A stretch of DNA of 43,990 bases from Kaiparowitsia implicata GSE-PSE-MK54-09C (lineage in GTDB: Bacteria > Cyanobacteriota > Cyanobacteriia > Elainellales > Elainellaceae): the NCBI GenBank assembly GCA_019359435.1, contig JAHHHI010000010.1, forward strand, positions 1 through 43,990. Reading direction: 5' to 3'. The position numbers and the translations under genes are program-made. Under the pieces are notes generated by a model. The model saw only the letters and a list, made by a program, of their open reading frames with translations, was not told the origin of the DNA and did no database searches. Below, piece after piece: positions 149 through 30,907 of the stretch (the stretch's first letter is position 1; the number at the start of each line of letters is the position of its first letter).

Positions 149-3100
149 CTAAAAGCCCGGCAACCCAATCACCGCATAAACCCCCGCAGTCGCCGCTAGC
201 ACCCCTGATGTTAGGGTCGTAAAAAAGAGCCACCAAGCGGCGATCGCCGCAACTCGACGGGCGTTATCGGCCTGGGTTTGTACGTGCCGACGCGTCTGAT
301 CAACCTGGGTTTGCACCTGCTCTTGCACTTGCTCTAAGCGGTTTAGCAACTGGTCGCGCGTCGATTCAATTTGGTGCACTAAGCCAGTGGATATCGTATC
401 CGAGAGGTCGTCGCGGAAGTGGGCCACTCGGTCAAGGGCCTCTTGACTCGTGCGTTGCAGGCGATCGCGCACTTCATCAAACGACACCGCATCCACCGCC
501 GACTGAGAGGCCGATTGCAACAGGCTACTGAGGGCATCTTGCAGACTATCCAGGCTGGCAAAGGGAGCCTGCAGGCGATCGCCAATGTCTTTTTGGACGC
601 GATCTATATCGATATCAGTAGCCTGCAGGCGATCGAGCTGTGGCTGGGCGGCATCTTGCAAAGAACCAAGGGTTGAGCTAGCCTGATGTCCCAAATCTTG
701 AGCTTGTGTAGAGAGTGATTGCCAAGCCGTCTGGACATGCTGAGCCGCAGACATCACTTCTGCCTGAGTTAAATCGCGACGGGATTCGAGCCACTGCACA
801 ATGTCTGATGGATGCACAGGAAACGACTCAGCCACCCTGCTGATTTGGTGGGTGGCATCGTGTTTTTCTGCATCCTGCTCTCCCTCATCTGGCGCGGTCG
901 GGTCTGGTTTTCCTTGATTTTGATGCATGTCGTCAGAATCAGCGTGATTCCTGCTTTCAGAATCGTCGGCAGACTTAGGAGCTTTTGTAGCCTGAAACGG
1001 CAGAGATGCAGACGGGAGCGCCGCGATTAGGTGGCGCAGATCCTGCTGAATGGCGCTCGGAGTGAGTTTATCCTTGGCCTGATGCTGCAAATAACGGTGC
1101 AGTCGGGTTGAAAGATCAGGGCGGTGACGGCGCAGCCAGCGGCGCGGCAGCCCAGTTGCTCGGTAAAGCCGCTGCTGAAGCTGATGCATGATCTGGCTAA
1201 CCTGATCGTCGCTCAACTGGTGAGATTGCAGACGCTGAATCACGGGTGACCAGTCCACCGTGGAGAGGTGGCGGCTGAGGGACTGCACCCCGCCTTGAGG
1301 GTGGGCGATCGCCGCTAGCAATTCCTGCTTCGCGTCTTCTAACGTAATACCTGACCAGTCGATGTCTTGCAGCACATCTGTAACCGTGCGGCTGAGGATC
1401 ACCTGAAGCGACTGAAGCGACTCAGGTTCTGCACTGAGTGCCTGCCGAGATTCCGGTGGCCGAGCAACCCGGTTCCAAGTTTGAGTGAGCTGAGCGAGCA
1501 AAGCCTTTTTGTGCGCTTCGCCTAGCCCTTGGCGGCGACTCAGCACCTGCTCAAGGCGAGGACAATCGAGCGCAGACGGCGGTGCCGCATCCGCCGGAAT
1601 TTCACAGTCCTCGAGCAGACTGTGCAGCTTTTGTTCAATACCGTCTGCCGTCAGCTTGTCGAGGTTGGTGTAGCGCAGGTAGGATTCGAGCTTGTCGTGG
1701 AGGAGGGCGATCGCCCCATCGAGCACCGCTGGCACCGCTGTCACTGTAGTCGAGTCCGGTGCCACGTCCACAGCAGGGGTCTGGGCAGCCGTGGCAGCCG
1801 CTTCTACCTGATGCTGCACCGTCGTTTGAATCGCCATCAACTGGTCGGCAATCTGGTCAATCTGTTTCGGCTCTAAATCCTGCCGCTGTTGCAACTGCTG
1901 GACATAAAACGAGCGATCAAGCGCCGCTAGCCACGGCAGAATATGGTGTGGTGCGGCGTCAGGATCATACAAAACCTCCGCAAACTCTGTTTGAAGAATG
2001 TCAGGCTGAAGCTCCCAAGGCTGGGCATGCCGCAGGTAGGTTTCTGCATCTAGCCGAATCAGGTTAAACGCGGGTAGCGCATTGGATGCATTGGACGCGT
2101 CAGGATCGCTGGAGTTGTCGTCCGACGAGGATGCCTGAATCTGGTGCCATACCCGTTCTAAATCCCACTCCGACAGATCAACCTGGTCAAGCGCTTGCTG
2201 CAAAGCCCACTGCGCAGCCTGGGACACATCCACTTGCGGCAACAGCGATCGCAGTTGACCGCCCAAGCTACTCAACAGCGACGAGGGCTCAAAACCAGCC
2301 ATCGCTGTTGCTTCCGTTGTGAGGGGTTGGCGGTTAGGGGGCGCTGAGGTGAACCGTCGGGTCGATTGCCCGTTTGCTAGCGCTTTGGGGGTTGATCGAG
2401 GGGGGTTGGGGCGAGTCAGGGCCACATCTGATGGGAAATCGGGGTTCGCGCCCTCTGATAAAGACGATACAGGCGAAGACGATACAGGCGAAGACGATAC
2501 AGGCGAAGATGTTGCTAACGTCGCGAGATAGTCATCTAAAGGCTGACGCAGATCCATCGCGGCCAGTGCAGCATCGACCTGCTGGCGCACGGTTTCAGTC
2601 ACATCCTGGGACAAGGGAGACGAGGGGAGGGGCGTCGTGCTCTCTCGATTGAGTAGGGTTCGAACTGCAGACAGCAATTGGCGGAACCCTGTGGTTACAG
2701 AACTGAGCGCCGTATCCACCACCGAGCCAACGGCGACAGAACTAACCCACGTCAGTAGTAGCACGTAGGCTGCCCAGATAAGAATACCGAGAATGCCGCC
2801 CACCACGGGATCGGGTGTAAGGCTCAGTCGCACGGCTAAAAAGCAGGCGATCGCCAACACTCCGCTGATGGTTAGCAAAATGCTCAGCCCCGTCGCAATG
2901 CCCACCGCCTGCAAGATGACGCGAGACGATGGGCCGGACTCATCAGGCTTTGCATCAGACTCATCCTCAGATGACTCATCCTCAGATGACAACGCTTCGG
3001 CGGTGTGAGCTGTAATGGGCTTCGGGCGAAAGCTGACAACCGTTATCCCCAGCGCGATCCCTAAGTTGGTCAGCAAAAACTGGAAGGCGATCGCCATCAG

Positions 3101-3172
3101 CAACCCTGCCAGGATGGTGACAACCACCTGTCCTCCAGACAACGGTAATGCAGTGGCTTGATTCAGTTCCAT
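149..3172 (-). CDS. Large membrane-anchored coiled-coil protein, function unknown
   Basis: The best start is the ATG at 3172 (1007 residues). It is followed at once by a hydrophobic segment (VVVTILAGLLMAIAFQFLLT) and has a GGGAA-type ribosome site upstream; the longer frame to 3280 adds a tail without such features. The N-terminus holds about four membrane helices within 200 residues, split by an acidic Ser-Glu-Asp stretch. A long, mostly helical Gln/Leu/Asp-rich region follows, with heptad-like and apolipoprotein-like stretches near the end (repeated VQ.QV, LDRL, VDQTRR). One last hydrophobic helix closes the C-terminus. The middle carries low-complexity inserts encoded by 15-bp tandem repeats. 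I recognise no enzymatic motif. The architecture suggests an envelope or thylakoid-membrane scaffold, which is inference. It converges on the partial gene at the left edge. Confidence 0.75.
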   Translation of the reverse strand: MELNQATALPLSGGQVVVTILAGLLMAIAFQFLLTNLGIALGITVVSFRPKPITAHTAEALSSEDESSEDESDAKPDESGPSSRVILQAVGIATGLSILLTISGVLAIACFLAVRLSLTPDPVVGGILGILIWAAYVLLLTWVSSVAVGSVVDTALSSVTTGFRQLLSAVRTLLNRESTTPLPSSPLSQDVTETVRQQVDAALAAMDLRQPLDDYLATLATSSPVSSSPVSSSPVSSLSEGANPDFPSDVALTRPNPPRSTPKALANGQSTRRFTSAPPNRQPLTTEATAMAGFEPSSLLSSLGGQLRSLLPQVDVSQAAQWALQQALDQVDLSEWDLERVWHQIQASSSDDNSSDPDASNASNALPAFNLIRLDAETYLRHAQPWELQPDILQTEFAEVLYDPDAAPHHILPWLAALDRSFYVQQLQQRQDLEPKQIDQIADQLMAIQTTVQHQVEAAATAAQTPAVDVAPDSTTVTAVPAVLDGAIALLHDKLESYLRYTNLDKLTADGIEQKLHSLLEDCEIPADAAPPSALDCPRLEQVLSRRQGLGEAHKKALLAQLTQTWNRVARPPESRQALSAEPESLQSLQVILSRTVTDVLQDIDWSGITLEDAKQELLAAIAHPQGGVQSLSRHLSTVDWSPVIQRLQSHQLSDDQVSQIMHQLQQRLYRATGLPRRWLRRHRPDLSTRLHRYLQHQAKDKLTPSAIQQDLRHLIAALPSASLPFQATKAPKSADDSESRNHADSDDMHQNQGKPDPTAPDEGEQDAEKHDATHQISRVAESFPVHPSDIVQWLESRRDLTQAEVMSAAQHVQTAWQSLSTQAQDLGHQASSTLGSLQDAAQPQLDRLQATDIDIDRVQKDIGDRLQAPFASLDSLQDALSSLLQSASQSAVDAVSFDEVRDRLQRTSQEALDRVAHFRDDLSDTISTGLVHQIESTRDQLLNRLEQVQEQVQTQVDQTRRHVQTQADNARRVAAIAAWWLFFTTLTSGVLAATAGVYAVIGLPGF
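2463..2507. repeat. 15-bp tandem repeat, three units, inside the coiled-coil gene
   Basis: The unit gacgatacaggcgaa occurs three times head to tail, followed by a partial fourth. Read on the minus strand it encodes a repeated SSPVS. Being a multiple of three, copy changes keep the frame, so this is a likely site of length variation between strains. Confidence 0.9.
2959..2988. repeat. 15-bp tandem repeat, two units, inside the coiled-coil gene
   Basis: The unit actcatcctcagatg occurs twice in tandem and encodes the acidic SSEDE repeat between membrane helices near the N-terminus. Its length equals that of the independent repeat at 2463-2507. Confidence 0.85.
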
Positions 3173-3338
3173 AGATTCCCAGTCAAGTGATGGCAGGGCG
3201 ATCGCAGCTCTACCCCCCCGACAGAATTGAGTTGAGATTGAGTTAAGACGGTTGGGGCCGTGGTTTGCGATGGGCCGCAACTACAGTTCCACCGCTGCCC
3301 TATCTCTATTGTGGGATACGGCGATCGCCCTTTTGGTC

Positions 3339-9545: not shown

Positions 9546-12500
9546 ATGGAACTGAAACAATGGTCTGCGATTCAACCCAATCAACGCCCCAAGCAACCGT
9601 CAAAGCGATGGTTGCTGGATTGGCTCAACCTGCGCCCTGAAGAAAGCGAACGAACCTTTTTAATGTTCGCTTATTACACCGTCACCTCAATCGGCATTTT
9701 GTGGCTTGAGGTGAGTGTGGCGGCGCTGTTTTTAGACGAGTATGGCGCAGAATCGCTCCCTTGGATTTATATCGTCAGCGCCGGGATTGGGACGATGCTG
9801 GGATCGTTCTACTCTCTGCTGCAAAAGTTTTTGCCCCTGCGCCGGGTGATTGTGATCATTGCGGTGTTGATGGCGCTGCCACTACCCTTGTTTCGCCTTG
9901 GGCTTGGCTCTGTGGTTCTGTTGGGGCTCACCGTCTTTTTGATGCGGCTGTGGCTAGAGGCCATCTATGTGCTCAATGAGCTGAATACCTCGATCACAGC
10001 TAACCAACTGTTCAACATTCGCGAAATCAAGCGCACCTTTCCGCTAGTGAGCAGCGGCGTGCTAGCAGCAGATGTAGTCAGTGGATTGTCGCTGCCATTT
10101 TTGCGGCAGTTGATGGGGCTGCCCAATGTCATTTTGATGGCCTGCATTCTGCTGTTTTGTGGCGCCTGCATTCTGTATTACCTCAGCCAAAGCTATCAGC
10201 AGTTTTTCCCTGATTCGTCTAAACGGCGGCTGCAAGAGAGCCAACCCGACTTCACGACGCGGCGGCTCAAAGGCCCAATGAAGCGCTATGTGCTCTTGCT
10301 AGTGGCGTTTTTTGTGATGGCGCAGGTACTGTGGCTGCTGCTAGATTTCCAATACCTGGCGCAAATTGAGCAGCGGCTAAATGTGGAAAATATTGCTGAT
10401 TTCTTGGCGCTATTTAGTGCAGTGCTGGGGGCATTTGAGTTGACTTTGCAGTGGTTTGTATCAAGCCGCATGATTGAGCGATTGGGGGTGTTCATTGTCA
10501 CTATGACTTCGCCTGCCATGATTTTTGTAGTAAGCGCGCTATCCCTCGGTGGCGTAGTCAGCATTTTTGTGGGGATGATTACGCTACGGTTTGTGGATGA
10601 GTTGTTCCGCTATACGCTGCTGGCTAGCACTGGGCCGGTCTTGTTTCAGCCCATTCCCGATGCAAACCGCAGTCGCATTCAATCCTTCGTGCGTGGCATT
10701 GTAGAACCCATTTCGTCAGGCGGCATTGGGGTGGTGATGCTGGGGGTGATCTGGTTTTCTCGCTGGTGGCTGGGTACCGATGAGCCTGAGATGGTTCAGC
10801 AGGGGCAAAGTCTCATCTTTTTAGGCATCATTGCCCTCTGCAGTTTGGCTTGGCTATTTACGGTGTGGCGGCTGCGATCGCGCTACTTAAATTTGCTGGT
10901 GCTCACGGCAGACCGGGGTGATTTGAGCCTCTCAGAGGTGGATTTACGCGAGTTTAAACGCGGCATTACCGAGGCCATGCAAGAGCGGGGCGATGAGGTC
11001 AAGAAGGCCTGTATTGAGCTGTTAACCCATCTCGATCCAGAAAACGTGACCGCAACACTAGCGCCAATGCTGGCGCAGATGTCTCCTGAACTGCAACGCA
11101 TGAGCTTAAAGGCCATGAACGAGCATCCTAAGGCAGAGTATGTAGAACCTGTGCGATCGCTCATGCAGCAGCCGCTGCCGCCGGATGTGCTGGCGCTGTC
11201 ACTGCGGTATGTCTGGCTCACCGACACCTACCCCGATGTCAACAAACTGCGACCCTACCTGAATCCGGCATGGGATGCTGAGGTGCGGGGCACGGCAGCG
11301 GCTCTGATGCTGCGATTGGGCGATTCACAACAGCGCATTGATGCAAGCGAAACCCTACGGCATATGTTAATGCATCCGCGCGAGCGCGAGCGGGTGATGG
11401 GTTGTCGGGCGTTGGGCGAAGCGAAGTATCTAGAGCGCTTGCGGCTGCTGATTGATGACCTCCTGCGAGACGATTCGCTGCGGGTGCGCTGCGCCATGCT
11501 AGAAGCGATCGCCGCGACCCAACTGCACGAGTATTACCCCACGCTGCTGCAAGCATTGAGCTATAAAAACACCCGCGAGGCCGCGATGGAAGCGTTGGTG
11601 CGGTTGGGAGATGAGGCCATTCCATCGCTGGTAACGCTAGGATCAGACAGCTATAAGCTAGATTTGCTACGCGTGTGCGCCTGGAAAACCCTCGGGCTGA
11701 TCGGCAGTCCCCCCGCCGTAAACGCCCTGCTGGCCCACATGGCAACCTCTTGGGGGGCGATGCGGCGTGCCGTCATGCGGACGCTGCTCAAGCTGCCGGA
11801 GGAGCGCGGCATTAATGCCGTTGAGGACTATTTTGGCCGCGATGGCATTGAAACCTTGATCAATCAAGAACTCTTTTTTATGGGTCAGCTTTATGCCTGC
11901 CAGCTGGATTTTACCCCTACTGCTGTGGCGGGGCGAGAAGGAGACCTGATGCGGCGCGCCCTGGATGATTTGCTGGACGATGCCCAACAGCGGATCTTTT
12001 TACTGATGCGCTTTCTATATTCTGCAGGCGCAATTCAGGCGGCGGCATTTAATTTGCAGTCGGCCTCGACCGAGAGCAACGCTCGGGGTCTAGAAATTCT
12101 AGACAATACGCTCGATATTCGCAGCAAACAGGCGGTGCTCTGTGTGCTCGAGCCAGGGAAACCCCGCAGCAAACTACGGGAACTGTCAGAGTTTGTTGAC
12201 TATCAGCCCCTGCCGCCCAGCGAGCGGCTGCGGACGCTGCTAGAGCTGCGCCATTTCCTCTCAGACTGGGCACTGGCCTGCTGCTTTCACCTAGCAACGC
12301 GGCATCGTTGGAGCGTTACGCCAGAGCAAGCGCTGGCGAGCTTGCGCCATCCTACGGGGTTTGTGCGAGAGGCGGTATTGACATACCTAAAGGTGGCCTC
12401 GCCACGGACTGTGCAGGATTTGCTGCCGCTGCTGAAGGCTGATCCCGACCCGCTAGTGCGATCGCTCCGACAGCAGGTGGTCTCAGAGTCGGAGGGGGCG

Positions 12501-12575
12501 ATCGCATCCCCAGCGTCTTCCGCTCACAACCGCACTGACCGTCGCCCTTGGACGCCCCAACTTGACCCGACCTAG
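9546..12575 (+). CDS. MFS/ATP-ADP-translocase-like membrane protein with C-terminal HEAT repeats
   Basis: The 1009-residue protein has about a dozen hydrophobic helices in residues 40-435. They include WLEVSVAALFLDEYGAESLPWIY, FLMRLWLEAIYVLNELN and FVDELFRYTLLAS, a layout like that of the nucleotide-transporter (Npt/AAA antiporter) and MFS folds. From about residue 460 a soluble domain follows, made of HEAT-like helical pairs (VKKACIELLTHLDPENV, VRCAMLEAIAATQLHEYYPTLLQALS, REAAMEALVRLGDEAIPSLV, VREAVLTYLKVASP). HEAT domains are protein-interaction scaffolds. The same-strand neighbour encodes a cNMP-binding protein 63 bases downstream, a pairing that suggests ligand-gated control of the transporter. 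The transported substrate cannot be inferred. The start lacks an obvious ribosome site, but the reading frame is unambiguous. Confidence 0.85.
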   Translation: MELKQWSAIQPNQRPKQPSKRWLLDWLNLRPEESERTFLMFAYYTVTSIGILWLEVSVAALFLDEYGAESLPWIYIVSAGIGTMLGSFYSLLQKFLPLRRVIVIIAVLMALPLPLFRLGLGSVVLLGLTVFLMRLWLEAIYVLNELNTSITANQLFNIREIKRTFPLVSSGVLAADVVSGLSLPFLRQLMGLPNVILMACILLFCGACILYYLSQSYQQFFPDSSKRRLQESQPDFTTRRLKGPMKRYVLLLVAFFVMAQVLWLLLDFQYLAQIEQRLNVENIADFLALFSAVLGAFELTLQWFVSSRMIERLGVFIVTMTSPAMIFVVSALSLGGVVSIFVGMITLRFVDELFRYTLLASTGPVLFQPIPDANRSRIQSFVRGIVEPISSGGIGVVMLGVIWFSRWWLGTDEPEMVQQGQSLIFLGIIALCSLAWLFTVWRLRSRYLNLLVLTADRGDLSLSEVDLREFKRGITEAMQERGDEVKKACIELLTHLDPENVTATLAPMLAQMSPELQRMSLKAMNEHPKAEYVEPVRSLMQQPLPPDVLALSLRYVWLTDTYPDVNKLRPYLNPAWDAEVRGTAAALMLRLGDSQQRIDASETLRHMLMHPRERERVMGCRALGEAKYLERLRLLIDDLLRDDSLRVRCAMLEAIAATQLHEYYPTLLQALSYKNTREAAMEALVRLGDEAIPSLVTLGSDSYKLDLLRVCAWKTLGLIGSPPAVNALLAHMATSWGAMRRAVMRTLLKLPEERGINAVEDYFGRDGIETLINQELFFMGQLYACQLDFTPTAVAGREGDLMRRALDDLLDDAQQRIFLLMRFLYSAGAIQAAAFNLQSASTESNARGLEILDNTLDIRSKQAVLCVLEPGKPRSKLRELSEFVDYQPLPPSERLRTLLELRHFLSDWALACCFHLATRHRWSVTPEQALASLRHPTGFVREAVLTYLKVASPRTVQDLLPLLKADPDPLVRSLRQQVVSESEGAIASPASSAHNRTDRRPWTPQLDPT

Positions 12576-12638
12576 CGATGTTAGCGACTAGATCTTCTTG
12601 GCGACTCCATCCGATCCCTATCCCTTTGTCTAGACGAT

Positions 12639-13136
12639 ATGCTGACAAGCGTTGATCGATTACTGTTTGTGCGTGGCGTTCCTGTCTTTGAAGAACTACG
12701 GGATGATTTTTTAGTGCGTTTGGCCGCCATCATGGATGAGCTATCGTTTCCGGCCAAGCACACCATCTTCACTGAAGGGCAAGAGGGGCGATCGCTCTAC
12801 ATTTTGGTGTCGGGCGCGGTTCGCGTTCACTTGGGCGATCGCGAATTGGTGCGCTTGCAGGAAGGGGCGTGCTTTGGCGAAATGGCAGTGTTCGACGCGG
12901 AGCCCCGGTCTGCCTCGGTCACCACACTAGAGCCCTGCGAGTGCCTAATGCTGACCCAGCAGCAGCTCTACGAAGCGATCGAAGAAACGCCTGGCATTGC
13001 GGTGAACATCATTCGCCTGCTCTCACGCCGCATCCGCACCCAAAACGCCAAAATTCGTGAATTGCAAGACGATGGTGGGCCGCAGTTCGTCCTCAATCAG
13101 CCCGAAAAAATCTCAGGCAGAATATCAAGATTTTGA
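12639..13136 (+). CDS. Stand-alone cyclic-nucleotide-binding-domain protein
   Basis: The 165-residue product is a single Crp-type beta-roll: LFVRGVPVFEELRDDFLVRLAA, then IFTEGQEGRSLYILVSGAVRV, the phosphate-binding cassette FGEMAVFDAEPRSASV (residues ~84-99), and a C-terminal helix ending in ISRF. The conserved Glu and Arg of the cassette are both present, so binding of cAMP or cGMP is plausible. There is no helix-turn-helix domain, so it is not a complete transcription factor. It follows the HEAT-transporter gene and probably acts with it, as an adaptor or regulatory subunit; this is inference from position. Confidence 0.88.
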   Translation: MLTSVDRLLFVRGVPVFEELRDDFLVRLAAIMDELSFPAKHTIFTEGQEGRSLYILVSGAVRVHLGDRELVRLQEGACFGEMAVFDAEPRSASVTTLEPCECLMLTQQQLYEAIEETPGIAVNIIRLLSRRIRTQNAKIRELQDDGGPQFVLNQPEKISGRISRF

Positions 13137-19605: not shown

Positions 19606-20391
19606 TCAACTGCTGCCCATCAGGCGCAGCGCCGTCCACCCAATGGTGATATAGCCTATAGCCAGCAGCAAACTGCCAATTCCAACCCGCAGACCCGACT
19701 TTAATGTGTCAATTTGGGCCGCATTTTGCGCTAGCTCTTGCCGTTGTTGGATTTCTTCTTCAGCTTGGGCTCTGCCCGCTTGCACCTGCTGCTGCAAGAA
19801 TGGGTCTAATGCATCGGGATTCTCGCGAAAGTCGCGCACCAAATTAACCTGCTCTTGGGTAATCAGGTTAGCCTGCACAGCCTGATCCAAATCTTCGTCG
19901 GGGGCAGCTATGAGCTGTTCAATCTGAGCCCGTTGCCGCTGCACTTCTACAGTAAACTGCTGCTCCAATTGGGCTTGGGTTTGTTCAACTTCTTCAGCCA
20001 AGCGCAGTTGAGCCGCTTCGTTGTTGGCCCGCACATTGTTTAAGTGAAGGGGAAACAAGACGATGTAGAGCAGCCCTAGCAGGCTCGCAAGCACCGCAGC
20101 CCAAAATCGCGCGGTGGCCAACGGTGGTCGAGGCAGACGACCCGGTTCTACCTGGGTATCGATCCAGTGCCCAGTAAACAGCATTCCTAGCCCCACTAAG
20201 GGCACTAGCCCCCGATCAATCACCTGAGCCGCAAAGGCAATTTGCCAGGTGCGATCGCCCCATTGATAGGGAATAGGCTGGATAATCATATCCACCAGAG
20301 CAAATAGAAAGATCACGATACCGCCCACAATCAAGGCACGGGAGGCTATGTAGGCGGCTGTGGGATGGGTCGTAGGCTTTGGAGAAACCAT
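19606..20391 (-). CDS. HpsJ-like membrane protein
   Basis: The ATG at 20391 gives 261 residues (MVSPKPTTHP...); the frame from 20418 opens with a TTG. Three hydrophobic helices occupy the first 120 residues (ALIVGGIVIFLFALVDMII, GLVPLVGLGMLFTGHWID, FWAAVLASLLGLLYIVLFPLHL). A coiled coil of Glu/Gln/Arg comes next, and a last membrane helix (VGIGSLLLAIGYITIGWTALRLM) closes it. This layout, with the PLHLNN motif after helix 3, is that of cyanobacterial HpsJ-family proteins, linked to hormogonium polysaccharide secretion and gliding. Here the gene is alone, without other hps genes, so a polysaccharide role is only an expectation. Confidence 0.75.
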   Translation of the reverse strand: MVSPKPTTHPTAAYIASRALIVGGIVIFLFALVDMIIQPIPYQWGDRTWQIAFAAQVIDRGLVPLVGLGMLFTGHWIDTQVEPGRLPRPPLATARFWAAVLASLLGLLYIVLFPLHLNNVRANNEAAQLRLAEEVEQTQAQLEQQFTVEVQRQRAQIEQLIAAPDEDLDQAVQANLITQEQVNLVRDFRENPDALDPFLQQQVQAGRAQAEEEIQQRQELAQNAAQIDTLKSGLRVGIGSLLLAIGYITIGWTALRLMGSS

Positions 20392-20456
20392 GGCAATGTA
20401 CGTAGTTAGCTTAAGCAAAAATACAAGTCATTGAGAAGTCAATTTTGGAGAAGTCA

Positions 20457-20716: not shown

Positions 20717-21448
20717 ATGAAACGCCAAGTCGAAATTCTGCCAGATGTGGACGCTATTGTGGCGCGATCGCTGGAACTCATAGTGTCGCGCATTCATACA
20801 GCCGTTGAGCAGCGGGGACAGTTCACCATTGCGTTGGCTGGCGGCAGCACTCCTAAGCCTCTTTATGGGGCGATCGCCCAGCAAGACCTCCCATGGGACA
20901 AGCTGCATATTTTCTGGGGAGATGAGCGCTACGTGCCTGCCGACCATCCCGATAGCAATGAAGGGATGGCACGCCGCGCCTGGTTAGACCAAGTTCCCAT
21001 TCCAGCTGATCACATTCATCCTATGCCCACGGCAGCAGCAGACCCCGCTGAGTCTGCTGCTGCCTACGAGCAAACGCTCCAACGCGTGTTCCAGGTAACG
21101 GATGGCGAAGTGCCAGCGCTGGATGTTGTGCTGCTGGGCATGGGTGACGACGGCCATACCGCCTCGCTGTTCCCCCATACCCCGGCCCTCACCGTGGGCG
21201 ATCGCCTGATTACAGTCGGCAATAAGGATGGGCAACCCCGCCTCACCTTTACAGCCCCGTTGATCAACCAGACGCGCTGCATTCTCTTTCTCGTGGCCGG
21301 GGCAAACAAGCAAACCGCCCTTACCCAAGTGTTTGCCGAGACCGCAGACGACGCTCACTATCCCGCCCGCCTGATTCGCCCAGAGGGCGAGTTGTGGTGG
21401 TTGCTAGATGCCGCCGCCGGTGCCGCACTGAACTCCCCATCTTCTTAG
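20717..21448 (+). CDS. pgl: 6-phosphogluconolactonase
   Basis: The 243-residue protein carries the DevB/NagB-type signatures LAGGSTPKPLYGAI, WGDERYVPADHPDSNEGMA and LLGMGDDGHTASLFPHTPAL. It ends in FLVAGANKQTALTQVF and a LIRPEGELWWLLDAAA tail. It hydrolyses 6-phosphogluconolactone in the oxidative pentose phosphate pathway, the main route of NADPH production in cyanobacteria in the dark. The start has a strong AAAGGAGA site. It is a single gene here; zwf is not in the window. Confidence 0.95.
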   Translation: MKRQVEILPDVDAIVARSLELIVSRIHTAVEQRGQFTIALAGGSTPKPLYGAIAQQDLPWDKLHIFWGDERYVPADHPDSNEGMARRAWLDQVPIPADHIHPMPTAAADPAESAAAYEQTLQRVFQVTDGEVPALDVVLLGMGDDGHTASLFPHTPALTVGDRLITVGNKDGQPRLTFTAPLINQTRCILFLVAGANKQTALTQVFAETADDAHYPARLIRPEGELWWLLDAAAGAALNSPSS

Positions 21449-22178: not shown

Positions 22179-23018
22179 ATGATTGTTTGCCCTAACTGCA
22201 ATCACCAAAATCCAGAAGGCGCGGTGCAGTGCGAAGCGTGCTACACGCCTTTGCCCAGCATGGCGACCTGTCCCAACTGTGGTGCAAAAGTGCAGGCAGA
22301 CGCCAGCTTTTGTGGACAATGCGGCTTCAACCTTCAAGCAGCGTCTGCCCCGAGCAAGGCTCCTGTTGTTGAGCCCGATGAGGCATCTGTGCCAACACTA
22401 GCTCCCGACTTCAGCATTCCAGACCTGCCTCCGCTGGAGCCGCTGGAGCCGCTGATGCCATTAAAGCCTGCTGCGACAGAAGCAACCTCCCCCGCGTCTG
22501 CAGATCCTGAACCCATTTCCTCCGCATCTGCCGCACCCGAGATGGGCGCGACACCCGACGAGGACACTCCTGAAACCGTCGCCTACGAATCAGCCGCTGA
22601 GCCTGCTGCTGGCAGTTCGGGGGGGGCACCACTCAGCACTGGCTCTGGGGCAGGGTTTTCGGCCCCGGTGCAGCCGACCCAAATTCAAATGCAGGCGGCG
22701 CAATTGATGCATGTGCAAACCGATACGATGATTGAATTGCCCCCCCATCTTTCGGTGATCCACATTGGTAAGCCTAATGACCGCATTCCCCCAGATGTAG
22801 ATGTCTCGGGCTTTCCCCATTCCGAAATCGTATCGCGCATTCATGCTGACATTCGCGTGGAAGGCAATGCCTTTTATTTAGAAGATGTGGGCAGTTCTAA
22901 TGGAACCTATGTCAACAACCTGCCGTTGACTAAGGGCAATCGCCATTGCCTAAGAGCGGGCGATCGCATTTCTCTGGGCAAGGGCGACAAGGTGACGTTC
23001 TTATTTCAGCAACGATAA
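22179..23018 (+). CDS. Zinc-ribbon plus FHA-domain protein
   Basis: The 279-residue protein begins with two CxxC zinc ribbons (CPNCNHQNPEGAVQCEAC and CPNCGAKVQADASFCGQC, residues 4-49). A flexible Pro/Ala/Glu/Ser linker of about 110 residues follows. The C-terminal FHA domain shows IHIGKPNDRIPPDVDVSGF, VSRIHADIRVEG and EDVGSSNGTYVNN. The HIGKxxD, SRxH and NGTxVN motifs are those that bind phosphothreonine. It is a cytosolic reader of Thr phosphorylation. The next gene also has an FHA domain and a degenerate kinase. Spacing to that gene is 656 bases with a MITE between, so co-transcription is not assured. Confidence 0.9.
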   Translation: MIVCPNCNHQNPEGAVQCEACYTPLPSMATCPNCGAKVQADASFCGQCGFNLQAASAPSKAPVVEPDEASVPTLAPDFSIPDLPPLEPLEPLMPLKPAATEATSPASADPEPISSASAAPEMGATPDEDTPETVAYESAAEPAAGSSGGAPLSTGSGAGFSAPVQPTQIQMQAAQLMHVQTDTMIELPPHLSVIHIGKPNDRIPPDVDVSGFPHSEIVSRIHADIRVEGNAFYLEDVGSSNGTYVNNLPLTKGNRHCLRAGDRISLGKGDKVTFLFQQR

Positions 23019-23674
23019 TTGCCCCAATCTCTCTGGGTCGATCGCGGCTGAATTGTGGGCAGCCTAACGGCTGAATCTTACGCTAGGGCGTGTCATCAAT
23101 TCCGACCAAAAGCCTTGTGCTATGAGCGTTGCCACGCCCGATCCAAAAAACAGGCTAGGGGTTGTGATCGTTCATTTTTGGGCCATTAGCGGCTAATTGA
23201 TGACAGCCCCTAGAGCTGAGTTGACTCTATCGTTAGCTTAGGAAGTTTCAACAGGCGAAATGCTGAGCTAGTCTATTGACGGGGTGGTTGGCTTCTGACG
23301 ATGATCTGGGCTCAGACGCAATAGCTAGAAGGTCGCTAGGGTTCTTTAACGCCAACCTAAGATGCTCAGGCACTCAGGCACTCAGCCGTAGAGGGGCATG
23401 CGCAAGGTGTGAGAAGGAGTACCAACCTGTTGAGTTATCGGTTTGTTTATGCGGCTTTTTCCTGCGGCGTCATTCAACCATGTGGTGGGATAAGCAGACC
23501 CCAGTTAGCTCAACCGCTTCCCTTAATCTGTGGTGCTAGTTTAATTGCCCTGACAGCATGGTTTTGTTTTGGATAAACCATTCTAGGATGGGACATATCT
23601 ACTCTGGCGATCGCGCCGTTATCACTACCTAGTTCAGTTTTGCGATTTCAGTTCTCTACAGTTCGCTCAATCGT
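23019..23674. other. Intergenic between the two FHA genes
   Basis: It holds a MITE copy (23084-23212) and otherwise nothing gene-like. The 87-codon frame at 23276 lacks protein-like composition. A HIP1 site and an AT-rich patch precede the GTG start of the next gene. Confidence 0.5.
23084..23212 (+). mobile_element. MITE-like repeat, copy 2
   Basis: This is 129 bp, bounded by TA, with the same terminal inverted repeats as the copies at 14221 and 28801 but more internal substitutions (for example the GATCCAAAAA arm). It appears the oldest of the three. It begins 66 bases after the stop of the zinc-ribbon FHA gene. Confidence 0.85.
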
Positions 23675-25108
23675 GTGATTACCCTATCCCTGCTGCATCC
23701 AATAAAACAAACGCCTGTTCAGGTGTGGACGTTTGAGAACGAATCGGTGATTCGGATCGGACGCTCTACTGATAACCACGTGATTCTTTACAGCGCGGTT
23801 GTGTCCCGGCACCACGTAGAACTGCGGCGGGTGGGAGCCGACTGGGAAATTGTTAACCTGGGCACGAACGGCACTTATCTCGATGGCAAGCGAATTGACC
23901 AAGTTACAGTGAACGATGGGGCGGTGTTTCGGCTAGCGCGCTCTGGCCCCAATGTCCGTATTCGGCTCAATTCTGAAATCGAAACCAATCTTCCCACTGA
24001 TGTTGAAAAAGCATCGCTGTCACGATCGCCCGATCCATCCCGGTTTCCGACAGAGGTGACTGATCGGCGATCGCCACCGCCGAGCGGCGAATCCGCCCCA
24101 CCCGATGCCCTCGATGCTGAGTTGTTGCGGATGCACCAGGGTGTGATTCCCGTGCCACCCCACTTGCGGCTGGATGATACTGAAGCAGAGGGCTTGCACC
24201 ACGTATCAACATTGCCTCAGTTGTCCTCTAGCCAAGCGGTTAACTGTCGGCATGAGCGGGGCGGGGATGTGTTTTGTGTGGAATGCGGGCAGCCCATCCA
24301 CTCGCTAGGACAGGTGGGCGGGTATCAGCTGTTGCAAGCTTTAGGGACGAGTCGCGTTGGGACGACGTATCAAGCCTGGCAGGGAGGCGACTTGGTCGTC
24401 GTTAAAACCCTGAATCCGCCTTGGCGCGATCGCCCAGAAGCCCAGGCCGCCCTAGAGTTTGAGGCTGATACCCTGCGGCAGCTCAGCCATTCCCAAGTTC
24501 CGAGATTGATCGATTTTTTTTTCGAGCAGGCGGTGCCCTACCTGGTGATGGAGTTGATGCGGGGGCAAGACCTAGCCAGCTACATTCGAGTGCTGGGGGC
24601 AGTATCGATAGAGCGGGCGATCGCCTGGATTATGGAAACCTGCACCCTATTGGATTATCTGCACCGCTTCATGCCACCGATTTTGCATCGCAACCTCCAG
24701 CCCGAGCATCTGATCTATCAGCCAGATGCCCCGCCCCATCAAACCTTAAGCCTGGTCGGGTTTGGTGCAATGAAGCAGGTTGTATTAGAGCCGTCATCCG
24801 GAAAGCCACCGCTAGGCTCTGAACGAGATGTGGCCTATGATGCGCCCGAAGTGCTCTCCCTTGAGGCCACGCCCGCTGCAGATCTCTACGCCATCGCGCC
24901 ATTATTTACGTTTCTTGTGACGGGGCAAAACCCCGTCTATTTTTATGGCGATCGCGGGGATGGAAACCGCTTCTGGGCTGAGCGAGTGCCTAGCCTTCAC
25001 CCCCAACTCATGGCTATTTTAGACAAGCTGACTGACCCCCGGCCTGCGGCACGTTATCAGTCGGCACGGGCTGTGGCCGCGGCCTTTCAGTATTTTGCCG
25101 AGGGTTAA
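23675..25108 (+). CDS. FHA-domain protein with degenerate kinase domain (predicted pseudokinase)
   Basis: The start is GTG at 23675. The 477-residue product has an FHA domain at residues 1-95 (VIRIGRSTDNHVIL, VVSRHHVELRR, NLGTNGTYLDGKRI), a linker, and a four-Cys/His cluster (CRHERGGDVFCVECGQPI). A protein-kinase fold follows (residues ~215-475). The Gly loop is altered (LGTSRVGTT), but the beta-3 Lys (VVVKTL) and an alpha-C Glu remain. The catalytic loop reads HRNLQPEHLI, with Asp replaced by Asn. The magnesium loop reads VGFGA, with Asp replaced by Gly. Both catalytic Asp are absent, though APE is kept. It should therefore bind rather than transfer phosphate, and probably acts as a phospho-reader or allosteric partner. 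The M50-like gene follows 88 bases on. Confidence 0.88.
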   Translation: MITLSLLHPIKQTPVQVWTFENESVIRIGRSTDNHVILYSAVVSRHHVELRRVGADWEIVNLGTNGTYLDGKRIDQVTVNDGAVFRLARSGPNVRIRLNSEIETNLPTDVEKASLSRSPDPSRFPTEVTDRRSPPPSGESAPPDALDAELLRMHQGVIPVPPHLRLDDTEAEGLHHVSTLPQLSSSQAVNCRHERGGDVFCVECGQPIHSLGQVGGYQLLQALGTSRVGTTYQAWQGGDLVVVKTLNPPWRDRPEAQAALEFEADTLRQLSHSQVPRLIDFFFEQAVPYLVMELMRGQDLASYIRVLGAVSIERAIAWIMETCTLLDYLHRFMPPILHRNLQPEHLIYQPDAPPHQTLSLVGFGAMKQVVLEPSSGKPPLGSERDVAYDAPEVLSLEATPAADLYAIAPLFTFLVTGQNPVYFYGDRGDGNRFWAERVPSLHPQLMAILDKLTDPRPAARYQSARAVAAAFQYFAEG

Positions 25109-25196
25109 GCTCGCCATTGCTAGCTGACAGCCGTTAGAGTTGAGATGACTCGATGGACAACCGTTCCTTAATATTCTCCCTCGATTGAAACCGACT

Positions 25197-25940
25197 ATGA
25201 GCAACCGTTGGCAGGATGATGACTTGGGCCTAAGTCCCAAATCGCGCGATCGCATTGGGCTACGCTGGCTGGCGATCGCGGCGATCGCCACGATTGTGCT
25301 CTGGCAGGTGCCTATTGGCAACTATCTTTTGTATCCCTTCAGCATTTTGGCCACTTGGTTTCACGAAATGGGGCATGGGGTCACGGCTATGCTGCTCGGG
25401 GGCACCTTTCGTCAGCTGCAAATTTTTCCCAGTGGGTCGGGCTTGGCGGTGCATAGCGGTGTCCAGTTTTTTGGCCCGGTGGGACGGGCGCTGGTCGCCA
25501 TGGGCGGGCCAATGGGGCCACCTATGGCGGGCGCAGCATTGATTTTGGCCTCGCGCAGCCGACGGATGGCAAAAGCCGGACTGCTAGTGCTGGCAGGGCT
25601 GCTGCTGATATCGGCGCTAATTTGGGTGCGATCGCTCTTTGGGCTGGTGGCTATTCCCTTAATTGGGCTAGCGGTGCTGTGGGTCGGCACATCAACCACG
25701 GGGTGGCTGCAGGCGTTTGCGATTCAGTTTTTAGGGCTGCAAGCCTGCATCAGCACTTACCACCAGTTAGATTATCTATTCATGAATCGGGCGGTGATTG
25801 GTGGCCAGCTGATCGTGTCTGACTCGGCTCAGATTGCGCAGAATTTGCTGTTGCCCTACTGGTTTTTGGGGGGGCTGATGGCGATCGCCTCTGCCCTATT
25901 GCTGGTGTGGAGTCTGCGCCTCGCGTATCGCCACGATTAA
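25197..25940 (+). CDS. M50-like membrane zinc metallopeptidase
   Basis: The ATG at 25197 gives 247 residues; the ORF from 25185 uses a TTG. The motif HEMGH (residues 56-60) lies at the end of the second hydrophobic helix. This is the usual arrangement of intramembrane or membrane-bound M50B peptidases, where two His and a later Asp or His hold zinc. Hydrophobic stretches continue through the protein (AGLLVLAGLLLISALIW, LFGLVAIPLIGLAVLW, LLPYWFLGGLMAIASALLLVW), giving about seven segments. No PDZ domain is visible. Substrate and pathway are unknown. It overlaps the rsmI ribosome site by a few bases, so they are likely one transcript. Confidence 0.8.
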   Translation: MSNRWQDDDLGLSPKSRDRIGLRWLAIAAIATIVLWQVPIGNYLLYPFSILATWFHEMGHGVTAMLLGGTFRQLQIFPSGSGLAVHSGVQFFGPVGRALVAMGGPMGPPMAGAALILASRSRRMAKAGLLVLAGLLLISALIWVRSLFGLVAIPLIGLAVLWVGTSTTGWLQAFAIQFLGLQACISTYHQLDYLFMNRAVIGGQLIVSDSAQIAQNLLLPYWFLGGLMAIASALLLVWSLRLAYRHD

Positions 25941-26909: not shown

Positions 26910-27848
26910 ATGATTCCTATTTTCTATTCTGATGTGTTCCTAGAGCACGAAACCGGGCAGTTCCATCCCGAAAATGCGGGCCGGCTCCGAGTGGTGGTGA
27001 CGGCGCTGCAGGCAACGCCCTGGGCTAAGCAGTTGGATTGGCGATCGCCCACACCCCTTAATGCGCAGGGCGATCGCCTTCATGCTGCGCTCCATAAGGT
27101 GCATCCTGATGCGTATGTGGGGGCGATCGCTCAGTTGGCCCAGCAGGGAGGGGGGCGCATTGACTCAGATACCATCGTGTCACCTCGCAGCTATGACGCA
27201 GCGCTACTCGCCGTTAGCGCTTGGCTTGATGGCGTCGATCAGGTGGTCGACTCAGGACATGCCGCGTTTGTGTTGGCGCGCCCGCCAGGACATCACGCCC
27301 TGCCCACCCAAGGCATGGGGTTTTGCCTATTTTCGAATGCGGCGATCGCCGCCCACTATGCCCTGCAACAGCCAACAGTGCAGCGTGTGGCCGTGCTCGA
27401 CTGGGATGTGCATCACGGCAATGGCACCCAAGCCATCATCGAGTCCAATCCTAACCTCGCGTTTTGCTCGCTCCACGAGTCCCCCCAGTATCCCTATACC
27501 GGTGCCACAGACGAACAGGGCCCTCACCACAACGTGCTGAATCTACCGATGCTCGCAGGCAGCACCCTAGCCGATTACGAGCCCTTGTTTGTCACTCGAG
27601 TTCTGCCGTTCTTGCAGGCCCACCAGCCCGATCTCCTGATTGTCAGTGCGGGATACGACGCCACCCTGGCCGACCCTATCGGTGGGGTTAGCCTGCACCC
27701 CAGCGACTACGGCACATTCACCCGCTACTGCCAGCAGATTACGCCTCGGATTTTGTTTGGGCTAGAAGGAGGCTATGATTACAATGCGTTAGCCGCATCA
27801 GTAGTGGCAACGCTAGAACCGCTGCTGATGCAGCCTGCTACCGCGTAA
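26910..27848 (+). CDS. Histone-deacetylase-family amidohydrolase
   Basis: The 312-residue protein has the arginase/deacetylase fold with class II HDAC motifs. The active-site His pair is in PPGHHA (H128, H129), zinc ligands are in DWDVHHG (D166, H168) and DPIGG (D255), and the transition-state Tyr is in EGGYDYN (Y289). All catalytic residues are present, so it should be active. Bacterial members deacetylate small molecules, polyamines or acetyl-lysine; which applies here cannot be told. The N-terminus YSDVFLEHETGQFHPENAGRL is the usual start. Single gene with 115 bases before it. Confidence 0.92.
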   Translation: MIPIFYSDVFLEHETGQFHPENAGRLRVVVTALQATPWAKQLDWRSPTPLNAQGDRLHAALHKVHPDAYVGAIAQLAQQGGGRIDSDTIVSPRSYDAALLAVSAWLDGVDQVVDSGHAAFVLARPPGHHALPTQGMGFCLFSNAAIAAHYALQQPTVQRVAVLDWDVHHGNGTQAIIESNPNLAFCSLHESPQYPYTGATDEQGPHHNVLNLPMLAGSTLADYEPLFVTRVLPFLQAHQPDLLIVSAGYDATLADPIGGVSLHPSDYGTFTRYCQQITPRILFGLEGGYDYNALAASVVATLEPLLMQPATA

Positions 27849-29110: not shown

Positions 29111-30670
29111 TTAGAAGGAATTAAACAGATAGACTAAGCCGATCGATACACCGATATCAAAACTGTCTAGCACTGCAAAATTAACGCCGCTGGTTAGCGC
29201 TAGCGTATTCGTGATAGGGATATCAACCCCAGCAGACAGCAGCAAATCTACATCGGTATCATTGTCAAAGGTGAGCGCAACCCCGGCACCTAGATAGGGC
29301 GCTAGGGTGATGAAATCAGTTGTGAACGGGGCAAAGTCATAGGTAACAGGCAGCAACAACGTTACATCGTCGTTGAACAGCAACCCTGGCCGCACCGACA
29401 CAAAATCAGAAATAGTGAACTTGCTAAAAACACCAAAGGCGCTGTCTGACAATGCGGTGTCGCCACCTAGACCAATGTTGCCGCCTGCCCCAATAAAGCT
29501 GGGGTTAACCGCGCGCCCTGGCGGAATTGCTTGAGCCAAGTCGGTCGCCGCATCAGCCGCTACGTCTTCAGCCGAGCGGGTAATCACCGTGCTCGAATCA
29601 AAGATGTAATTAATGCCAAACACCACTCCCAAGTCAACATCGTCAAAGGGAGCCAGATTGGCAGCCGCAGAAATGGCAATGGTGTCTGAGATTGGCACAT
29701 CAACACCCCCCGTGAGCAGCAGGCCAAAGGTATCGCCATCGCCGGTGTTAATCGCAACGCCACCGCCTAAGAAGGGCGCAAACCCAGCGCCCGGAGCTGC
29801 AATGGGGAAGTCGTAGGTGACAGGCAGCAAGAAGGAGGCTTCATCCTCAATCAACACGCTGGGGCGAAAGGAAAGGTAGGGATTCAGCGCGATTTTGCTA
29901 AGCACACCAAACCCGGTTTCACCAATGGCAGGGCCACCCGTGATGCCTAGGTTTGGGCCAACGCCGATGTAGCTGAAGACGTAGCGCTGCTCGAGCCCAC
30001 CCGGCAGTTGGGCTTGGCTGCTGGGCAGCGTCAGCGCGGGGATAGTGCCATTGGTTGTTGCAGGCTCTAGCCCAGGAGTTTGGGGTGCCACCTGAAGGTC
30101 GGCTGCGGTGCCAGTGGCATCCATTGATTCGGCTGGTTCGGCATCCACATCAATCATGCCGCCTGCGCCAGCCGCATCCTGGGTGAGGTTGGTTTCGCGA
30201 GTTGGCAGTTCGACTTGGGTGGGCAGAAGGTCTGGTTCGTCAGCTGTTTCGGCGATCGCCCCTTCGGCCTCAAGCATGTCAGCCCCAGAGTCCACGGTCT
30301 CAGCGGTGGCGTCTGGGGCTGCATCTGCATTTATGTCGGTACTGAATTCGCTGGTCGAGGGTTCTGTCTCGATGGCTTCCATCGACTCAATTGGGACAGG
30401 CTCAGCGGCAACGGGATCTGACTCCATAGCGGCGGGTTCAACAGCGGTTGGGGCTGCGTCAGCCTCGTCAATGGCTACCGGCATCTCGGTGGCAGGTGCC
30501 TCATCGGCGATCGCCCCGGGGGCCATCTCAGTCACCTCGTCTGCGGTCAGGGTGTTGGTTTCAAGCTCAGTATTCGTTTCTGCTAGAGATGGCAGATGAC
30601 CCACAATTAACGCTGAAATGACAATGCCGCAAGACAGAAGGGTCTGCTTGAGCAGTAGGTTCGGTTTCAC
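29111..30670 (-). CDS. Predicted outer-membrane protein with duplicated beta-barrel domain
   Basis: The best start is GTG at 30670, with GGAGGAG six bases upstream. It gives 519 residues: a short positive start, a signal peptide (TLLSCGIVISALIVGHLPSLAE) and a ~185-residue acidic Ala/Glu/Pro/Thr linker. Two homologous ~128-residue units follow (about 229-357 and 391-519). Each opens SYIGVGPNLGI or SFIGAGGNIGL and runs through SKIALNPYLSFRPS or SKFTISDFVSVRPG. Each contains LLPVTYDF, a GVDVPI or GVDIPI strand, and NYIF or VYLF at the end. Alternating hydrophobic strands and a final aromatic F fit an outer-membrane barrel inserted by BamA. The 33 codons upstream of the GTG lack a ribosome site. 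Function unknown. Confidence 0.8.
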   Translation of the reverse strand: MKPNLLLKQTLLSCGIVISALIVGHLPSLAETNTELETNTLTADEVTEMAPGAIADEAPATEMPVAIDEADAAPTAVEPAAMESDPVAAEPVPIESMEAIETEPSTSEFSTDINADAAPDATAETVDSGADMLEAEGAIAETADEPDLLPTQVELPTRETNLTQDAAGAGGMIDVDAEPAESMDATGTAADLQVAPQTPGLEPATTNGTIPALTLPSSQAQLPGGLEQRYVFSYIGVGPNLGITGGPAIGETGFGVLSKIALNPYLSFRPSVLIEDEASFLLPVTYDFPIAAPGAGFAPFLGGGVAINTGDGDTFGLLLTGGVDVPISDTIAISAAANLAPFDDVDLGVVFGINYIFDSSTVITRSAEDVAADAATDLAQAIPPGRAVNPSFIGAGGNIGLGGDTALSDSAFGVFSKFTISDFVSVRPGLLFNDDVTLLLPVTYDFAPFTTDFITLAPYLGAGVALTFDNDTDVDLLLSAGVDIPITNTLALTSGVNFAVLDSFDIGVSIGLVYLFNSF

Positions 30671-30907
30671 AATCACTCCTCCACATAGGACTGTAATGAT
30701 GATCACAAAATTGCTCCAAGACTGCTCCAAAAGAAGGATATAGAGCCAATTTGTCTCATAATTACGCACACAGCTTAGTGTGGCGCGAGATCTGATAATC
30801 GGTCAAGTTCTAAAAGGAATAGAGCGCGATCGCCCACGACTTTCCCGCATCTCTCTAAAGATAAAAATACCGCCGTTTTTTTTACTCTATGGAAGTATTT
30901 TGCGCGA

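Follow-up and report, generated by a model that had tools for sequence, protein, structure and literature searches.

Cyanobacterial proteins that join an FHA domain to a Hanks-type kinase domain have been on record since 2005, when Krupa and Srinivasan listed them; T. elongatus BP-1 has two, and Trichodesmium and Nostoc have several. The same survey tabulates, for each genome, the number of kinase-like sequences without the catalytic Asp (PMC1262709). Zhang et al. (2007) described the FHA cluster as an early recruitment. They dropped 17 proteins without the catalytic motifs, and Tery_0088, which has an FHA domain, is among nine deviating proteins (PMC2176072). According to a 2025 review, bacterial pseudokinases are largely unexplored by experiment and five of seven families consist of pseudokinases only; "FHA" and "forkhead" occur once each in its main text, one such passage dealing with MviN and FhaA (PMC12599244). 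The loss of one catalytic residue can leave ATP binding or activity, as described for HER3 and CASK (PMC4718504). In Anabaena, FraH is reported to act in membrane reorganisation, and a fraH null mutant has no honeycomb membranes in its heterocysts (PMC11500504). We found no paper in the open-licence literature on a cyanobacterial FHA-pseudokinase or on recurrent catalytic loss at a FraH-linked locus.

Here we analyze such a locus in Kaiparowitsia implicata GSE-PSE-MK54-09C. The window is the whole stretch of 43,990 nucleotides (contig JAHHHI010000010.1) in which the gene lies, and a preliminary description made from the sequence alone was our starting point.

Sequence features of the FHA-pseudokinase

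The reading frame is complete and has no internal stops (Table 1). It aligns over its full length with orthologues, at 41-56% identity in 11 full-length matches, and is therefore not a chance ORF. A twelfth full-length match (L028, 34% identity) is a member of the sister family considered below. The FHA domain has the phosphothreonine-binding residues of the GR, SxxH and NG motifs (G29 R30, S44 R45 H47 and N65 G66 T67). The Pfam Pkinase match covers aa 217-423 (E 2e-21, 77 bits against a cut-off of 31.7), and the domain can be aligned to about residue 470.

Table 1. Features of the FraH-linked locus, with positions in the window
Feature	Position	Strand	Basis or remark
pgl (6-phosphogluconolactonase)	20717..21448	+	TIGR01198; next recurrent upstream neighbour (synteny)
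FraH-like gene, double zinc ribbon + FHA, 279 aa	22179..23018	+	Pfam DZR and FHA; conserved, upstream
CDS, FHA - Cys/His cluster - pseudokinase	23675..25108	+	477 aa, GTG start; translation, Pfam, full-length orthologues
FHA domain, aa 26-87	23750..23935	+	Pfam PF00498, E 5e-15
Variable linker with P-V-P-P-H-L motif	23975..24244	+	Alignment; in most pairs dN/dS is higher here than in the FHA and kinase regions
Cys/His cluster, C191-x-H193 ... C201-x2-C204-G	24245..24289	+	Directly before the kinase-like domain
Kinase-fold domain, catalytically degenerate	24323..25084	+	Pfam match 24323-24943; motif states
Beta-3 Lys K244 (VVVK), retained	24404..24406	+	Lys also in 59 of 72 orthologue rows
HRNLQPEH replacing HRDxKPxN	24686..24709	+	Read directly and by alignment
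GFG replacing DFG	24758..24766	+	Read directly and by alignment

Two of the residues expected of an active Hanks-type Ser/Thr kinase, the beta-3 Lys (K244) and the alphaC Glu (E263), are present. The domain also has an APE motif (390-392) and the alphaF Asp (D403), and its Gly loop reads LGTSRVG. The HRD Asp and the Asn that follows it are replaced (H338-R339-N340 and H345), as is the catalytic-loop Lys (Q342), and the metal-binding Asp of DFG is gone (G362-F-G). Translation, alignment and Pfam confirmed the preliminary description on each of these points: HRN for HRD, GFG for DFG, QPEH with both Lys and Asn replaced, the retained beta-3 Lys and APE, the N-terminal FHA domain and the Cys/His cluster. 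With a Pkinase domain in which HRD and DFG are lost, the protein is a pseudokinase by sequence definition. Without its catalytic base and both metal-binding residues (Asn and Asp), it should not be an active Hanks kinase, to judge from its sequence.

A search of solved-structure sequences with the window protein returned ordinary kinases such as StkP and PknA. An AlphaFold2 model of the window protein with five relatives was set aside (mean pLDDT 41.6, pTM 0.35). Rfam at its gathering thresholds gave no match in the window. A promoter and terminator scan of positions 22900-25300 gave four promoter-like sites (1.3 in shuffles) and one terminator-like site (2.5 in shuffles), on which nothing is based.

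A Pfam search of the same genome found 17 kinase domains, that of the window and 16 others. All 16 others have the HxD Asp, and DFG was seen in the nine that were aligned; L208 has DLG, and a pattern search of L200 gave no DFG-like triplet. Loss of catalytic residues is not usual for the kinases of this genome. Five of the 16 have a four-Cys motif near the N-terminus, and from its sequence the window's Cys/His cluster looks like a variant of this common cyanobacterial kinase element. Cys motifs of this kind may bind zinc or respond to redox. Elsewhere in the genome (G000:C64:116999-119056), a kinase (698-aa frame) lies near an FHA protein (343-aa frame), possibly a pair of writer and reader.

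The FraH-linked locus and its orthologues

To define the orthologue group we used similarity of the FHA part and a place downstream of a gene for a zinc ribbon + FHA protein; the window protein has both. The upstream gene (22179-23018) is called FraH-like by its domain make-up, zinc ribbon plus FHA, which we take to be that of FraH. The FHA part was matched at E <=1e-22 in 212 of 290 genomes of the cyanobacterial class with a completeness of at least 90%. Among the matches listed (to about E 6e-37) we hand-picked 100 loci (L076-L175), comprising the kinase-length ones and a sample of short ones; 71 have a kinase-length ORF and 29 are short, including L156, whose FHA and kinase parts are in separate frames. 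Residues were counted in 72 rows, made up of the window protein, L181 and 70 of the fetched loci with 400 aa or more. The sister kinases stayed outside this set, as did the truncated L085 (355 aa), L182 with its broken frame, the partial L183, and L156.

Upstream sequence of at least 1.5 kb was available at 96 loci, of which 78 are preceded by a FraH-like gene in the same orientation; these are 59 of the 67 kinase-bearing loci and 19 of the 29 short ones. In most cases that could be tested, forms with and without the kinase are thus orthologues by position. The 18 testable loci without the FraH-like gene (8 kinase, 10 short) include seven of the eight members of one clade of family f16; the eighth, L124, lacks room upstream. 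Taken as plain distance, the gap between the FraH-like and the FHA gene is at most 586 bp in 76 of the 78 pairs and 2-5 bp in six. The gap in the window is 656 bp, exceeded in only two of 78 relatives, and is partly due to a MITE-like element at 23083-23213 between the two genes. This element has 19-nt imperfect inverted repeats and at least 42 matches in the genome, its own copy included (40 of 205 first-look candidates were scored). The zinc Cys and the FHA residues of the FraH-like proteins are conserved over 82 rows.

Further upstream, pgl was found at many relatives' loci. The downstream gene for an M50B peptidase (25185-25940) was rejected as a partner, a downstream match being present at four of 71 kinase loci and one of 29 short loci. 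Near the locus is also a gene for an HpsJ-type hormogonium polysaccharide protein (19606-20418, minus strand), which is near in several relatives as well. The window codes in addition for a histone-deacetylase-like protein (26910-27848, plus strand) downstream of an rsmI-type gene, and for a 1009-aa HEAT-repeat protein followed by a 165-aa cyclic-nucleotide-binding protein (9546-13136, plus strand). Two long ORFs on the minus strand are a 1043-aa frame (149-3280) with no Pfam match at 0.001 and a 552-aa frame (29111-30769) whose only match, below threshold, is to a cyanophage outer-membrane-like beta barrel.

The preliminary description had called the order of FHA domain, zinc cluster and pseudokinase uncommon, which did not hold. 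The order is common in cyanobacteria, with at least 71 kinase-length FHA loci and a sister family of the same order, and FHA plus kinase proteins of cyanobacteria were on record in 2005 (PMC1262709). The Cys/His pattern is found in 45 of the 72 orthologue rows and in five of five sister kinases, counted with one pattern that misses variants such as that of L095.

Catalytic residues across the orthologues

Retention over the 72 rows differs from residue to residue: 59 rows have the beta-3 Lys and 51 the catalytic Asn, against 37 with the HRD Asp, 33 with the DFG Asp and 31 with the alphaC Glu. Both Asp are kept in 20 rows and neither in 22; only nine rows have all five catalytic residues. The remaining rows are half-lost, with the HxD Asp kept and the DFG Asp lost in 17 and the reverse in 13. 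We mapped these states on a tree from which the motif columns had been left out, with five sister kinases as its root. It is a quick tree with 19 of 74 inner branches open and several long rows, so the counts of changes are rough: loss of the Asp pair requires at least six changes, or 13 losses if the pair is never regained, the HRD Asp seven changes or 12 losses, and the DFG Asp eight or 10. L146 is the first of the intact forms to branch off, and L144 and L110 have near-basal positions in their groups. The clade of the window protein has 14 members, of which L077 and L080 are intact and the others have HRG or HRN.

Since orthologues with both Asp exist, catalytic loss is lineage-specific and recurrent and not a fixed trait of the family; with 20 such rows, and nine with all five residues, the family is not dead as a whole. 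The preliminary description had suggested a family alignment to see whether the losses are conserved, and had held that orthologues with intact HRD and DFG would refute its reading. Losses do recur in the family but are not uniform, and intact orthologues do occur, but their existence does not make an active kinase of the window protein.

The intact relatives raise the question of whether the kinase is really active and its substitutions come from faulty assembly or sequencing. HRN and GFG are each one base from HRD and DFG, two members of the same clade (L077 and L080) are intact, and the state is read from one genome, none of the 60 relatives searched sharing its genus. Against this, N340, H345, G362 and also Q342 are changed without a frameshift, and like changes are present in other genomes (HRG/GFG in L076, HRN/GFG in L104), so that an error is hardly credible.

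The half-lost rows bear on whether the protein may retain residual or unusual catalysis, binding ATP and weakly transferring phosphate or another group in the manner of CASK or HER3. The window keeps K244 and E263, CASK works metal-free without a DFG Asp and HER3 binds ATP with Asn for the HRD Asp (PMC4718504), and single-Asp orthologues are frequent (17 of 72 with the HxD Asp only, 13 of 72 with the DFG Asp only). The window protein, however, has both changes at once, has no metal-binding Asn and has a Gly loop that is not clean, and we consider its catalysis decidedly unlikely.

Loss of the kinase-like domain and selection on what remains

The 29 short ORFs are 108-174 aa long. The FHA-only protein of L168 (G068) ends in CSHMRRTQDLRSCLDCGAFLQE, the zinc motif without a kinase, and that of L147 ends with the linker motif IPVPPHL; both endings point to loss of the kinase part. 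Because the sister family has the full domain order, loss of the domain is likelier than its gain. In a tree of the FraH-like and FHA proteins (82 rows, read for topology only), the switch between kinase-bearing and FHA-only forms takes 11 changes, and within families taken alone there are four in f1, the window's family, one in f16 and one in f26. A tree of PGL and FraH was poorly supported and nothing is based on it. With many lineages lacking the kinase-like domain, its role is not essential everywhere.

Two loci show other states. At L156 (G042) the FHA ORF is 108 aa and the kinase-like part lies downstream in another frame, by gene fission or a frameshift. L085 (G064), an f26 orthologue, ends at 355 aa inside the kinase-like domain, its close relatives having 471-474 aa.

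The phosphothreonine-binding residues of the FHA domain are invariant in 101 of 101 rows, while the catalytic residues vary. Conserved in the kinase-like part are the HRD His and Pro343 (each 72 of 72), the alphaF Asp (71), a C-lobe Arg (70) and the APE Glu (69). By NG86, dN/dS in 15 pairs was 0-0.09 for the FHA domain (15 calculable), 0.08-0.52 for the linker (13) and 0.03-0.22 for the kinase region (14), with dS saturated in some pairs and all pairs being relatives outside the window's genus, as the window gene has no close relative. In 12 of the pairs both members have lost at least one catalytic Asp, and their kinase regions gave 0.03-0.22 (11 values). As these values are far below 1, the degenerate kinase domains of the relatives are under purifying selection.

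These data are relevant to the possibility that the kinase-like domain is decaying without a job, on its way out with only the FHA domain of importance. Decay would account for the repeated loss of single residues and of the Cys/His pattern, which 27 of the 72 rows did not show, for the loss of the whole domain (11 changes between the two forms on the tree of FraH-like and FHA proteins), and for the FHA domain being the slowest-changing part. It sits poorly with 71 fetched loci that have a kinase-length open frame, of which one (L085) is truncated, with the low dN/dS of the degenerate pairs and with fold residues kept in 69-72 of 72 rows. We give it a small but real chance.

An intact sister FHA-kinase

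A second cyanobacterial family has the same order of FHA, CxH...CxxC and kinase. All five catalytic residues (K, E, D, N, D) are kept in 41 of 41 sister loci read (30 + 11), one of which, L243, has an internal stop; since similarity to an intact query set the ranking, the choice of loci favours intact ones. We searched 73 genomes with kinase-bearing orthologues and found sisters at 350 bits or more in 35, including G203 with an internal stop. The remaining matches reach at most 325 bits and are mostly the FraH-linked copies themselves. A sister is scored as absent if there is no match among up to 25 scored candidates a genome, and some of the genomes are not complete (G186 90%, G032 83%, G020 78%).

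Where the sister is present, both Asp of the FraH-linked copy are kept in none of 34 rows; where it was not found, they are kept in 20 and not in 18. For all five residues the numbers are 0 kept and 34 not with the sister, and 9 and 29 without. A raw Fisher test for both Asp gives 1e-7, but the rows are related. Independent contrasts number only four (starred branches) to six, the traits agreeing in 0-2 and disagreeing in none, and with so few contrasts the association is without significance. No sister was found at this threshold in the window's genome. The window copy is degenerate nonetheless, which shows that absence of the sister need not mean that the copy is intact.

One use for a degenerate copy beside an active FHA-kinase would be as a decoy or dominant inhibitor, competing for the same phospho-clients and dampening the kinase. 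In all 34 rows whose genome has the sister, the copy that coexists with it is degenerate. Yet none of the nine f1 rows, the window included, has a sister at threshold and seven of the nine are degenerate, which leaves the decoy a rather slim prospect.

In none of the 72 cases are the FraH-linked copy and the sister both intact. It is thus possible, though we would put it forward only tentatively and with some doubt, that cyanobacteria have a conserved locus of two readers, a FraH-like protein and an FHA-(pseudo)kinase, where a kinase became a non-catalytic phospho-reader many times in parallel, with at most one of the two FHA-kinase families compared intact in a genome. If so, loss of catalysis in the FraH-linked copy would be favoured in any genome whose sister writes the phosphate, and the locus would amount to a replicated experiment of nature on how a kinase becomes a scaffold.

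Proposed role of the FHA-pseudokinase

We read the window protein as the FraH-linked copy of an old FHA-kinase that has lost phosphotransfer and would now act as a non-catalytic phospho-reader scaffold, most likely with the FraH-like protein as its partner. We put the probability of this reading at about two in three. The preliminary description had likewise proposed a phospho-reader scaffold instead of a kinase, and with the FHA binding residues kept and the catalytic residues lost this is the best reading of the sequence.

The invariant FHA residues and the recurrent FraH-like neighbour suggest that the protein may read phosphothreonine alongside a second reader. Its FHA domain would be the conserved working part, binding phosphothreonine made by another Ser/Thr kinase, for which the genome has 16 candidates. 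The kinase-like domain could serve as a non-catalytic interaction or allosteric module that docks a client or the writing kinase without phosphorylation. Together with the zinc-ribbon + FHA product of the FraH-like gene, the window protein would form a two-reader, phospho-dependent assembly. Extending the membrane role of fraH to the window is a guess by analogy.

At this one conserved locus the kinase domain occurs in every state from intact through half-degenerate and degenerate to deleted, and some of the genomes also have an intact sister. Such a series lets one ask directly which function stays once a kinase no longer phosphorylates, and the answer may tie to FraH and the heterocyst honeycomb membranes of Anabaena (PMC11500504).

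Comparison with known systems

With Pfam, no MurJ/MviN or other membrane domain was found in the window protein, and NCBIfam likewise gave no MurJ/MviN. The MviN-type (ActPs3) pseudokinase is joined to a MurJ/MviN membrane part. In mycobacteria, MviN and FhaA resemble the system proposed here in that a pseudokinase and an FHA reader act together; they differ in that the phosphorylated pseudokinase recruits an FHA domain on another polypeptide, whereas the window has both on one chain (PMC12599244). The CP1 pseudokinases are also cyanobacterial, have no transmembrane region and include active and degenerate members (about 40% pseudokinases), but as described in the review all are linked to a COG3899 ATPase domain (PMC12599244), which Pfam and NCBIfam did not find in the window protein.

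SpkE (Slr1443) of Synechocystis is a Ser/Thr kinase without the HRD Asp for which no activity was found, as cited in PMC2176072. It has no added domain in the table of that paper and is likened to the window protein by description only. HER3 has Asn for the HRD Asp, like N340 of the window, and CASK lacks the DFG Asp, like G362; each is described with one loss (PMC4718504), whereas the window has both and no metal-binding Asn.

The closest described proteins are the cyanobacterial FHA + kinase proteins, in which an FHA domain with GR, SxxH and NG is likewise joined to a Hanks-type kinase domain; the pertinent passages of the two surveys differ from our account in drawing no split into an intact sister and a FraH-linked copy and no recurrent catalytic loss (PMC1262709, PMC2176072). 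Such proteins have been known since 2005; what is new, as far as we found, is the recurrent catalytic loss at the FraH-linked locus.
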